Under the pieces are notes generated by a model. That model made no database searches. It had not been told where the DNA came from and saw only the letters and a list, made by a program, of their open reading frames with translations. The position numbers were made by a program, and so were the translations under genes. This document shows, in pieces, positions 4,262-8,540 of a DNA stretch of 51,731 bases (position 1 is its first letter; each line of letters starts with the position of its first letter). This DNA is from a bacterium (GTDB lineage Bacteria > Sysuimicrobiota > Sysuimicrobiia > Sysuimicrobiales > Segetimicrobiaceae): the NCBI GenBank assembly GCA_035295165.1, contig DATGJN010000080.1, positions 1 through 51,731 on the forward strand, given 5' to 3'.

Positions 4262-4750
4262 ATGCCGGAGGGTAACCCCAGGGCAACGACCTACCTGCGG
4301 ACGCTCTGCTTCATCCGGTACGGCGACCGCGTGCTTCTGCTCCAGCGTCGTCACCCGCCCAACCAGGGGCTGTACAACGCCCCCGGCGGCAAGATCGAGC
4401 GGGACGAAGATCCGTACGAAGCCTGTCTGCGCGAAGTCCACGAAGAGACGGGGTTCCACCTCCGCAAGATCAGGCTGCGCGCGCTGCTGACGGTGATCAG
4501 CCGGACGACCGGTGCCCAGTGGCTGTTGTTTGTGTTCGTGGGGGATCGGCCGGCGGGAGACCCCGACCCCATCGCGACGGACGAAGGGACGCTGCGGTGG
4601 GTGCCGCTGTCCGACATCGCCTCCCTGCCGGTGCCCGCGGACATTCCGCTGATTCTCCCCCACCTGTTCACCCCCGATCCCGGCATCCTGATCGGCAAGA
4701 TCCACGCCGAGGACGACGTGCTCGTGGACTACGAGGTTCGAAACGCCTGA
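4262..4750 (+). CDS. Nudix hydrolase, MutT/8-oxo-dGTP diphosphatase type
   Basis: This 162-residue protein has a textbook Nudix box at residues 43-65. It fits G-x5-E-x7-REUxEExGU exactly (GGKIERDEDPYEACLREV, then HEETGF). The REVHEETG core binds Mg2+ and cleaves a nucleoside diphosphate linked to another group. The early strand (LCFIRYGDRVLLLQRR) and the C-terminal DEGTLRWVPLSDI segment are typical of MutT/MTH1-like enzymes that clear oxidised nucleotides such as 8-oxo-dGTP. The ATG at 4262 fits the family start. A second Nudix gene follows after 57 nt and an OGG1-type glycosylase after that, which supports a role against oxidised guanine. The exact substrate is inferred. Confidence 0.85.
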   Translation: MPEGNPRATTYLRTLCFIRYGDRVLLLQRRHPPNQGLYNAPGGKIERDEDPYEACLREVHEETGFHLRKIRLRALLTVISRTTGAQWLLFVFVGDRPAGDPDPIATDEGTLRWVPLSDIASLPVPADIPLILPHLFTPDPGILIGKIHAEDDVLVDYEVRNA

Positions 4751-4807
4751 CCCAAGACGGTCGGGCCGCGCGAAGGAGTTCCGGGCATCCAGGGACAACA
4801 GGATCGT

Positions 4808-5401
4808 ATGCCCGAACAGGTCCTGGTCGTTCCGCGTGCTCGGCTGTTGCCGCACGGAGGGTTTCACGGATTCTGCCGCGAGGGACTCTCGGCGTACCTG
4901 ACCACGATCGAGGGGTACGCGTTCTTCGCGCCAAGGGATCAGGTCGAAGAGGACGCGAGTCTCAAGCAGATCATCCCCTACGTGGTCCTCCGCCACGACG
5001 CGCGCATCTTTCTCGTCGAGCGCACGCGCGGCGGCTCCGAAGCGAGGCTGCGCGACAAACTCTCGATCGGCCTCGGCGGGCACATCAATCCCGGGGATGG
5101 CGACGGTGCGGCGGACCGGGTGGCGGCGGGGATGGAACGGGAGTTGACCGAGGAGGTCGACCTGCCCGCGGGATGGCGCGCCAAGCCGATCGGCCTCCTC
5201 AACGACGACGTCGAGGCCGTCGGACGCGTGCACTTCGGCCTCGTGTACGTGGCCGATCTTCCGTCACCGGACGTGCGCGTCCGCGAGACCTCCAAGCTCG
5301 CGGGCGCGTTTGCCACGCGCGAGGAGGTCCGCGCCGCGTACCCCCGCCTGGAATCGTGGTCGCAGTTCGTCGTAGACGGGGTGGATCTGCTGGAGGTCTA
5401 G
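4808..5401 (+). CDS. Nudix-domain protein with a lengthened box (phosphoesterase-like)
   Basis: The protein has 197 residues. The N-terminus (EQVLVVPRARLL) and a conserved linker precede a Nudix fold in which the box is split by a Gly/Asp-rich loop: GGHINPGDGDG at 90-100, then RELTEEVDL at 111-119. The catalytic Glu pair of RELTEEV is present, but the spacing from the first Gly is longer than in the standard motif. This architecture matches proteins annotated as Nudix family or phosphoesterase in actinobacteria, archaea and deep-branching Gram-positives, whose substrate is not established. It sits between a standard MutT-like gene and an OGG-type glycosylase gene that starts two bases after its stop, so it is probably co-transcribed with both. 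Confidence 0.8.
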   Translation: MPEQVLVVPRARLLPHGGFHGFCREGLSAYLTTIEGYAFFAPRDQVEEDASLKQIIPYVVLRHDARIFLVERTRGGSEARLRDKLSIGLGGHINPGDGDGAADRVAAGMERELTEEVDLPAGWRAKPIGLLNDDVEAVGRVHFGLVYVADLPSPDVRVRETSKLAGAFATREEVRAAYPRLESWSQFVVDGVDLLEV

Positions 5402-5403
5402 GC

Positions 5404-6372
5404 ATGCCCGCGTGGACGCTCGAGGCGGCCGGGGTCCACCTCCGGCGCACGCTCGACTCCGGGCAGGCGTTCCGATGGCGTTGGGAGACAAGGAACGGCG
5501 GCCCCGATGTGGCCACCGGGATCGTGGGCTCCCACCGGCTCCGCGTCACACAAGACGCTCGAGGCGTTCATCTGCTGGCGCCAGGCACCCCGACCGCGCG
5601 CGACGCGCTTGCGCGCTACCTGACGCTGCCGTCCCCGGACGCCACGCGTTCGGGCGGCGACGCACCCGGGCTGCACCGTATCGAAGCGCGCCTCGCCGCA
5701 GACGCCGTGCTCGCGCGCGTGCTGCCGCGTACGCACGGCATTGCGCTGCTGGTTCAGGACCCGTGGGAGGTCCTAATCTCGTTCATCGTCTCCCAGAACA
5801 ACAACATCCCGAAGATCACCCGATCGATCGAAGGTCTCGCCCGCGCGCTCGGAGCACCCCTCGGCGACGGCGCCTACGCGTTTCCGTCACCGGCGCGGCT
5901 CGCCGCGTCGCACCCGGCGACGCTCCGCGCCTGCCACCTCGGCTATCGAGCACCCTACGTGCGCGAGGCGGCGCGGCGTGTGGCGGAGGGGCGGCTCGAT
6001 CTCGACCGGCTCCGGCGCATACCCGAGGCCGAGGCGCGCGAGGCGCTGCGCGAACTCCCCGGCATCGGCGACAAAGTGGCCGACTGCGTCCTGCTGTTCG
6101 CGCTTGGCCACGTCACGACGTTCCCGGTCGATGTGTGGGTCCGGCGCGCAGTGGAGCGGCTGTACTTCGGCGGCCGGCCGAGACCGTTGCGGGAGATCCG
6201 CGCGTTCGCACGAGATCGCTTCGGCCCGCTCGCGGGCTACGCCCAGCAGCACCTGTTCGTGTACGCGCGCACGCATCTCAGGAATCCCCGCGGGCGCGAC
6301 ACCGTCGCGGTCACCGCGCCCGCAGGCGCTTCCGGGCGAGCGCGGGCCCGCCCGGGCCGATCGCGGGCGTGA
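5404..6372 (+). CDS. ogg: 8-oxoguanine DNA glycosylase/AP lyase, OGG1 type
   Basis: The 322-residue protein has the order of OGG1 enzymes. An N-terminal OGG_N domain (DSGQAFRW near 18-25) is followed by an HhH-GPD domain. The segment ISFIVSQNNNIPKI (126-139) matches the eukaryotic-type SFICSSNNNIARI. The helix-hairpin-helix LPGIGDKVADC (218-228) carries the catalytic Lys224, and Asp243 in FPVDVWV is the activating residue. The enzyme excises 8-oxoG opposite C and nicks the strand. It lacks the C-terminal Fe-S cysteines of MutY. The ATG at 5404 is two bases after the preceding Nudix stop. The tail after ~300 is Arg/Ala-rich and probably disordered. Bacterial OGG1-type enzymes are less common than Fpg, so the cluster with two Nudix genes is notable. 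Confidence 0.88.
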   Translation: MPAWTLEAAGVHLRRTLDSGQAFRWRWETRNGGPDVATGIVGSHRLRVTQDARGVHLLAPGTPTARDALARYLTLPSPDATRSGGDAPGLHRIEARLAADAVLARVLPRTHGIALLVQDPWEVLISFIVSQNNNIPKITRSIEGLARALGAPLGDGAYAFPSPARLAASHPATLRACHLGYRAPYVREAARRVAEGRLDLDRLRRIPEAEAREALRELPGIGDKVADCVLLFALGHVTTFPVDVWVRRAVERLYFGGRPRPLREIRAFARDRFGPLAGYAQQHLFVYARTHLRNPRGRDTVAVTAPAGASGRARARPGRSRA

Positions 6373-6386
6373 GCGCGCGTCCACCC

Positions 6387-7436
6387 TCACCGCGCGGTAA
6401 CGGTGATCTCGCCGAGCCCCGGCCCCGTGATCTCGCCGACGACGGCGGCCAAGGTCCCCCGCTCGCGCAACGCTCCACACAGCCGCTCGAGACGGTCCCC
6501 AGGCACCGCGATCAGCAGGCCGCCCGAGGTTTGCGCGTCGCACACGATGACCTGCGCGTCCTCGGCGACACCGTCCCAGACGACGGCCTCTTCGAGCGCG
6601 GCCCGGTTACGCTCCGTCCCGCCCGGGATCGTCCGCTGCCGGACCAGCGTCCAGGCCTCTTCGAGCACGGGAACCGCCGAGAGGCGGAGGTGCGCGCGCA
6701 CCGCGGCCGCGCGCGTCATCTCGTGGAGGTGTCCGAGCAGTCCAAACCCCGTCACGTCTGTCGCGGCGGACACGCCGGTCGCGACCATCGCGTCCGCCGC
6801 GGCCCGGTTCAGCGTGGCCATGATGCGAATCACCTCGTCGGCCGTCTCGCGCGACGTGCGGCCCTGTTTGATTCCGGTGGTGATCACGCCCATCCCGAGC
6901 GGCTTCGTGAGGACCAGGATGTCCCCGGGGCGCGCGGACGCATTGGTCACGACGCGGTCTGGGTGCACAAACCCGGTCACCGCGAGCCCATACTTCGGCT
7001 CGGGATCGTCGATCGTGTGCCCGCCGATCACGGTGACGCCGGCCTCGGAGCACTTGTCCGCGCCGCCGCGGAGGATCTCTCCGAGGACATCCAGGGGCAG
7101 CGCCGTCCTCGGGAACGCCGCGATGTTAAGCGCGAGGCGCGGAACCGCACCCATCGCGTATACGTCGCTGAGTGCGTTGGCGGCGGCAATCGCGCCGAAC
7201 CAGTAGGGCTCGTCCACCACGGGCGTGAACACGTCCACGGTCTCGACGAGGGCGAGTTCGGGCGTAAGCCGATACACCCCCGCGTCGTCCGCGGTGTTGG
7301 TACCCACGAGGACGGCAGGGTCGGTGATCGGTGGCAGGTGGCGCAACACGTGCGCCAGGTCCGTCGGACTCAGTTTGGATGCTCAGCCGGCGCAGGCCAC
7401 CATGCTAGTGAGCCTGATCCGGTCGCGCTCGGTCAT
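6387..7436 (-). CDS. selD: Selenide, water dikinase, selenocysteine-containing
   Basis: SelD makes selenophosphate from selenide and ATP, the selenium donor for Sec-tRNA and 2-selenouridine. Read from ATG 7436, behind a strong GGGGAGG site, the frame meets one UGA (codon 18, 7383-7385) and then runs 331 sense codons to the stop. Around the UGA the protein reads VACAG-U-ASKLSP. The UGA falls exactly where Escherichia coli SelD has catalytic Cys17, three residues before the essential Lys (Lys21 here). Downstream landmarks are TADDAGVYRL, GGHTIDDPEPKYGLAVTGF, TDVTGFGLLGHLHEM and DAQTSGGL, all typical of SelD. The protein has 349 residues if UGA is read as Sec. It is convergent with the OGG gene and divergent from lysR. 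Gene finders would start it too late, at the GTG 7349. No selA, selB or selC lies in the window. Confidence 0.93.
7359..7385 (-). promoter_or_regulatory. In-frame UGA (Sec18) of selD with putative bacterial SECIS hairpin
   Basis: The UGA is at 7385-7383. Beginning 13 nt further along the message, GUCC-GAC-GGAC (7369-7359) forms a short stem with a G at the first loop position. That is the kind of apical structure SelB recognises at this distance in bacterial selenoprotein mRNAs. The UGA call is strong from protein alignment. The hairpin is short and not folded by program, so it is tentative. Confidence 0.5.
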
Positions 7437-7567
7437 CGCGTCCTCCCCGTCCGCGCCTCCCGCGCCCGCGGATCCTGACCGCGGGGGCGCCGTCGTGTCC
7501 TCATTGTAGCACCGGCGCCGGCGGCGGGGCCGCATGATGAATGCCCCTCCTCATCGGCGCAGGCCCC

Positions 7568-7576
7568 TGTTATAGT
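7568..7576 (+). promoter_or_regulatory. Extended -10 promoter element of the LysR gene
   Basis: TGTTATAGT is a TGn-extended -10 element 28 bp before the lysR start. No good -35 is visible, which suits an extended -10 promoter. A TACAAT on the other strand (7508-7503) may serve selD, so this is a divergent control region. Confidence 0.4.
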
Positions 7577-7604
7577 GAGTGGTAGCACATGTGGGAGAAC
7601 CGCC

Positions 7605-8540
7605 ATGGCGATCAACCTCCACCAACTCAAAATCTTTCACACCGTGGCCAGATCCGGCAGCTTCTCGCGCGCGGCGGCTGAACTGAAAATCAGCCAGCCG
7701 TCCGTGAGCATCCAGGTCGGAGATCTAGAGCGCCAGTTCGGCGTCGAGCTCTTCGAGCAGGCGGGGAAGGCCGCCCGGATGACCGAAGCGGGCCGGATCC
7801 TCGATGCCTATGCCGGCCGGATCCTGGCGCTCATCGACGAGACGCGCGGCGCGATCGACGAGGTCAAGGGCCTCCGCCGGGGTCGACTCCTGATCGGCGC
7901 GACGTCGACGCCCGGGGCCTACCTGCTGCCAGGACTGTTGAGTCGGTTCCGCGAGCAGTACGCGCACGTCGAATTGGGCCTGCGGATCGCCGGGACGCGG
8001 CGCATCCAGGAGATGCTGCTGCAGCGCGAGTTGGACCTCGGCGTTGTGGGCGGACACGTCACCCAGCGGGACGTCGAGGCCGTGCCGATCGCCACCGACG
8101 AGCTGGTGCTGATCACGGCACCCGGCCATCGGTTCGCGTCGATGCCGTCGGTGGCGACCCCGGACCTCGCCGGCGAGCCGTTCATTCTGCGCGAACGCGG
8201 ATCCGGCACCCGCGAGGTCGTGGACGAGGCGCTGCATCGTGTCGGCGCCCACCTCACGCCCGCGATGGAACTCGAAGGCGCGGAGATGGTCAAACAAGCC
8301 GTGGCCGCCAATCTGGGCGTGTCGATCCTCTCGCGGTGGGCGGTGGCGATCGACGTCGCCGCGGGCCGTCTCTGCATCGCACCGATCGACGGGGTACGGA
8401 TCACGCGAGAGATTCTGCTCGTCTACCATCGGGACCGCCGCCTGCCGCATCTCGCCCGCGCATTCGCCGAGATGGTGGCACCGGCCTGGCACGCCCCCGC
8501 CTCGTCGGGCGCTGCCCCTCCCGCGGCGGGTCGCGCGTAG
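7605..8540 (+). CDS. LysR-family transcriptional regulator
   Basis: The protein has 311 residues from ATG 7605 (GTGGGAGA upstream). Residues 1-60 form the winged helix-turn-helix (LHQLKIFHTVARSGSFSRAA and SQPSVSIQVGDLERQFG). A linker helix follows, then a periplasmic-binding-like effector domain (about 90-295) with the LPGLLSRFREQYAHVEL and GVSILSRWAV features of CysB/CbbR-like regulators. LysR proteins usually regulate themselves and a divergent neighbour; here the divergent gene is selD. The gene downstream in the same direction is a phosphatase. No T-N11-A operator was picked out. The tail after ~300 is Pro/Ala-rich. The effector is unknown. Confidence 0.88.
   Translation: MAINLHQLKIFHTVARSGSFSRAAAELKISQPSVSIQVGDLERQFGVELFEQAGKAARMTEAGRILDAYAGRILALIDETRGAIDEVKGLRRGRLLIGATSTPGAYLLPGLLSRFREQYAHVELGLRIAGTRRIQEMLLQRELDLGVVGGHVTQRDVEAVPIATDELVLITAPGHRFASMPSVATPDLAGEPFILRERGSGTREVVDEALHRVGAHLTPAMELEGAEMVKQAVAANLGVSILSRWAVAIDVAAGRLCIAPIDGVRITREILLVYHRDRRLPHLARAFAEMVAPAWHAPASSGAAPPAAGRA

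Follow-up and report, generated by a model that had tools for sequence, protein, structure and literature searches.

A selD gene with an in-frame TGA codon, predicted to encode selenocysteine, and a SECIS hairpin within the coding region in a little-studied bacterial class

Introduction

Selenophosphate synthetases (SelD) that contain selenocysteine (Sec) are known in some bacteria, as an earlier note on the DNA studied here had stated; in a 2015 survey they made up 19% of prokaryotic SelD, always with Sec at the same position, and bacterial SECIS elements were detected in their genes by RNAz (PMC4561486). In these bacterial Sec-SelD or SPS2 proteins (TIGR00476; PMC4561486), Sec occupies one conserved site in an N-terminal loop with a Lys three residues on, and the SECIS lies within the coding region shortly after the UGA. 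The principle that SelD can be its own product is long known. In the bacterial SECIS model, a stem of 4-16 bp carries a loop of 3-9 nt whose first two positions include a G; the element is spaced 16-37 nt from the UGA and has an energy of -7.5 or lower (PMC13188914). The SECIS elements of bacterial fdhA/fdhF have a small loop with G then U on a short stem at this distance (PMC13188914).

The selD gene described here lies in a stretch of 51,731 nt (the window) and resembles the described Sec-SelD in its Sec site, in the Lys three residues on and in a SECIS shortly after the UGA. It differs from them in its companion Cys, which precedes Sec by three residues (-3; CAG-U-ASK) and does not follow it by two (+2; GAG-U-ACK). 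Since Sec-SelD has long been known, this SelD is ordinary in kind; what may be less familiar in this lineage are the companion Cys at -3 instead of +2 and a hairpin whose position shifts between families. Our literature search turned up no paper dealing with selenoproteins from this lineage, whose nearest named relatives are metagenome-assembled genomes (MAGs) labelled Bacillota (Centralia), Terrabacteria group ANGP1 and Armatimonadetes CSP1-3. The Sec-SelD implies a working selenium-protein pathway in this uncultured, little-studied group, in which standard gene callers truncate SelD and thereby remove its active site.

Results and discussion

The selD frame

The frame from ATG 7436 ends at TGA 6389-6387 and its sole interruption is the TGA at 7385-7383, surrounded by the residues MVACAG-U-ASKLSP (Table 1). 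The earlier note had read a UGA at codon 18 of this frame, in the context CAG-U-ASKLSP and behind a strong ribosome site; its coordinates and reading are correct, and the site is the purine-rich GGGGAGGA, 4 nt ahead of the ATG. Searched against the TIGR00476 selD profile, the read-through product scored 389.6 bits (E 9.7e-117; cut-off 125) over profile positions 1-309 of 311, a full-length match above the curated cut-off. Both AIRS domains are present, which bears out the claim that the rest of the frame is a full SelD.

In an alignment of Sec-type and Cys-type SelD, as the note had proposed, the UGA falls opposite Cys, and U18 and K21 line up with the catalytic-site Cys and Lys of the Cys-SelD rows. 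We take codon 18 to be the position of catalytic Cys17 in E. coli SelD, with Lys21 three residues on. The two proteins share the enzyme family and this catalytic position, but the residue is Sec here and Cys in E. coli. We conclude that the gene almost certainly encodes a selenophosphate synthetase with Sec as the catalytic residue, a reading that draws directly on gene content, conservation and RNA structure and, for Sec incorporation and catalysis, on what is known of the families. Adjoining selD in the window are a divergent LysR-type regulator (7575-8540, plus strand) and, downstream and convergent, an OGG_N/HhH-GPD DNA glycosylase (4519-6372, plus strand).

Table 1. Positions of the features discussed (window numbering unless a contig is named)
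Feature	Position	Strand	Description and basis
selD	6387..7436	minus	349 codons + stop, in-frame TGA read as Sec18; TIGR00476, PF00586, PF02769
TGA codon 18, predicted selenocysteine	7383..7385	minus	sequence; conservation in class genomes
Ribosome-binding site GGGGAGGA	7441..7448	minus	sequence; ATG 7436 begins 4 nt later
GTG, Val30 codon, in SECIS loop	7347..7349	minus	table 11 start for truncated ORF 6387..7349
Hairpin A, GUCC-GAC-GGAC	7359..7369	minus	between UGA and hairpin B; folds, synonymous-codon z
SECIS hairpin B	7339..7357	minus	folds, synonymous-codon z, compensatory pairs, inner pairs missing in Cys-SelD
fdhA (L154), formate dehydrogenase alpha with in-frame TGA	G000:C69:30079-31956	minus	predicted selenoprotein

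Conservation of the TGA codon

Were the UGA a real stop, the gene would be a pseudogene without product or would yield a shorter protein from GTG 7349. Translation table 11 without recoding does offer such an ORF, and no other (7349..6387, 320 aa). This ORF begins 29 residues late and lacks the active-site loop, the UGA position and Lys21, so that an ordinary gene call loses the active site, as had been predicted. The GTG that a gene caller would pick as the start coincides with the loop of the SECIS described below, which argues against a start there, and residues on both sides of the TGA are conserved throughout the class (RLTSMVACAG-U-ASKL), which argues against a pseudogene. We therefore consider a truncated or inactive gene very improbable.

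TGA is one base away from both TGT and TGC, and a sequencing or assembly error could have turned an ordinary Cys-SelD into the gene seen here. Of the 43 genomes in our class sample, 37 possess a main SelD spanning the site, and every one of these carries TGA. Because of this uniformity, sequencing error and pseudogene are both ruled out in practice; error, which would also have to account for a downstream hairpin typical of Sec genes whose inner pairs are mostly missing in true Cys-SelD, is the more remote of the two. Across 117 loci from the class and from wider species genomes (a total that counts some class genomes twice, as the two collections overlap), the codon was TGA in 106, TGT in six and TGC in five, with none other. 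Genome-wide reassignment of TGA to Trp or Gly would likewise let the codon be read through, but gene content and the TGA stop refute it and leave it with a negligible chance: selD itself ends in TGA, selA, selB and tRNA-Sec are in the genome, the other TGA observed in frame marks the Sec site of fdhA, and homologues carry Cys at the site, never Trp or Gly.

Most class genomes without a covering SelD are incomplete. In one that is 95% complete (G038), SelD is missing and no selB scored over the cut-off, which is the joint absence to be expected; another (G039) has the TGA SelD and no selB over the cut-off, perhaps owing to an assembly gap. SelD matches in plasmid records were distant only. One class genome (G029) also holds a second, distant SelD (42% identity) of the Cys type, with codon TGC. 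It lies on a 14.7-kb contig (G029:C34:3938-7033; the selD part is spanned by L140) with tRNA-Sec and a high-scoring selB adjoining. This second set represents either contamination, which stands at 6% for the bin, or a Sec operon that the genome has acquired.

Sec machinery and a second predicted selenoprotein

The genome that carries the window (G000) comprises 4.79 Mb in 121 contigs and is 97.9% complete, with an estimated contamination of 2.9%. The earlier note had predicted that selA, selB and selC would lie in other parts of the genome and had staked its reading on their presence; all three were found. Profile searches placed selA (536.7 bits) and selB (329.6 bits) as neighbours on contig C24, with intact ORFs of 482 and 645 aa, respectively, and winged-helix domains in SelB. 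The tRNA-Sec on contig C76 scored 70.6 bits (gathering score 47), and ARAGORN assigned it the anticodon tca (UCA). The genome has one SelD match over the cut-off. Its selAB and tRNA-Sec are on different contigs; since selB and tRNA-Sec share a contig in several relatives (e.g. G026 and G027), this split is most likely a matter of assembly rather than contamination.

SelD is not the sole predicted selenoprotein of this genome, because its fdhA has one TGA in frame, at the Sec site (context NNIDSCNRT-U-HAPS). A hairpin follows 3' of that TGA (CGUCUCC-GGUCU-GGAGACG, with loop GGUCU).

We propose that SelB with Sec-tRNA-Sec would bind the hairpin at 7357-7339 of the selD message and insert Sec at the UGA. 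The finished SelD would then, as its family suggests, convert selenide and ATP to selenophosphate, on which SelA would draw to form more Sec-tRNA-Sec. SelD would therefore feed the Sec pathway and also be produced through it, and the pathway would serve the Sec formate dehydrogenase as well.

A SECIS hairpin downstream of the UGA

With the U of the UGA counted as +1, hairpin B extends from +29 to +47 and consists of a 7-bp stem (UGGCGCA/UGCGCCA) closed by the loop CGUGU (7350-7346), 32 nt past the UGA, with an energy of -11.4 kcal/mol. Stem length, loop, distance and energy all agree with the bacterial SECIS model given above. Plain folds of the 50-60 nt after the UGA in the window showed no significance when compared with dinucleotide shuffles (z -0.4 to -0.9), and neither did simple folds of 41-80 nt. 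An Rfam search gave no match, its single hit being due to chance. The case for a SECIS is made by the local hairpin, by covariation and by controls with synonymous codons, not by the plain fold.

Against synonymous recodings, which keep the protein unchanged, hairpin B had a mean z of -3.15 in family f1, -3.11 in f4 and -2.90 in f2. In the window itself z was -2.7, and 5% of the recodings folded equally well. Covariation within families f1-f4 was uninformative; the hairpin pairs barely vary there, so a wider set of 69 Sec-SelD genes across phyla was needed. In this set, the hairpin B pairs form in 91.1% of cells, and slid versions of the hairpin pair at 22-54%. Two-sided changes occur at five of the seven pairs, with 28 compensatory two-sided cells against 5.9 expected (0/500 shuffles). 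G37 and U38 are invariant, both being partly imposed by a conserved Val codon.

The clearest pair is +33:+43, in which the base at the wobble position of an Ala codon matches the one that opens the codon four residues later. The Ala codon is GCG in 57/59 genes with Arg at that residue, GCT in 8/8 with Ser, GCC in 5/5 with Gly and GCA in 3/3 with Cys, counts that come from related sequences and are not independent events. This match is not explained by protein constraint. The pair is formed in 81/96 genes (shuffles: mean 52.9, maximum 66 in 5000).

The Cys-type SelD genes sampled mostly lack the hairpin B pairs, unlike the selD of the window: among 11 such genes, 9-27% have the inner pairs +32:+44 to +34:+42. 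Folding energy gave a mixed control (mean z -1.8 for TGC genes and -0.7 for TGT genes), and we therefore based our reading on the individual base pairs of hairpin B rather than on total folding energy. These findings support a bacterial-type SECIS hairpin at 7357-7339, the element for which the earlier note had suggested folding the sequence after the UGA. In comparison with the fdhA SECIS of the same genome, the loop starts further from the UGA (+36 in selD, about +22 in fdhA). A further difference from fdhA/fdhF is an extra small hairpin between UGA and SECIS.

The companion Cys

In this class the loop (window 7394-7377, minus strand) has its Cys at -3, and most other Sec-SelD have Cys at +2. 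Among 97 distinct Sec-SelD, 50 have Cys at +2 only, 44 at -3 only, three at neither and none at both positions. On a tree built with the motif left out, these states change at least eight times. Independent pairs on well-supported branches number only three, and for this reason the mutual exclusivity of the two positions is not significant. The pattern is suggestive of a swapped redox partner of Sec.

A possible shift in SECIS position

The small hairpin between UGA and hairpin B, hairpin A, spans +17 to +27; in the window it is weak, at z -0.9. Three families of this class, f5, f6 and f7 (e.g. the SelD genes L048, L045 and L136), have a long, strong hairpin A (mean z -2.5 to -4.1), as in CUGGGUCC-GGA-GGACCUGG, together with a hairpin B that is missing or weak (mean z -0.1 to -0.5). 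With its loop 17 nt past the UGA, hairpin A also falls within the bacterial SECIS model. The far hairpin B is retained in family f2, and likewise in f1 and f4, where A varies. This computed pattern, with hairpin A strong where B is missing or weak, suggests that the SECIS has changed place between two adjacent positions inside a single class. Several SelD genes of actinobacteria seem to have their hairpin in yet another register.

A broader idea, which we put forward tentatively and regard as rather unlikely, is that the SECIS is one of two hairpins that swap roles by lineage, and that the redox partner of Sec moved repeatedly between +2 and -3 without ever occupying both. If true, these genes would form a natural series for examining what displacement of the SECIS SelB can tolerate and how the Sec loop functions in SelD.
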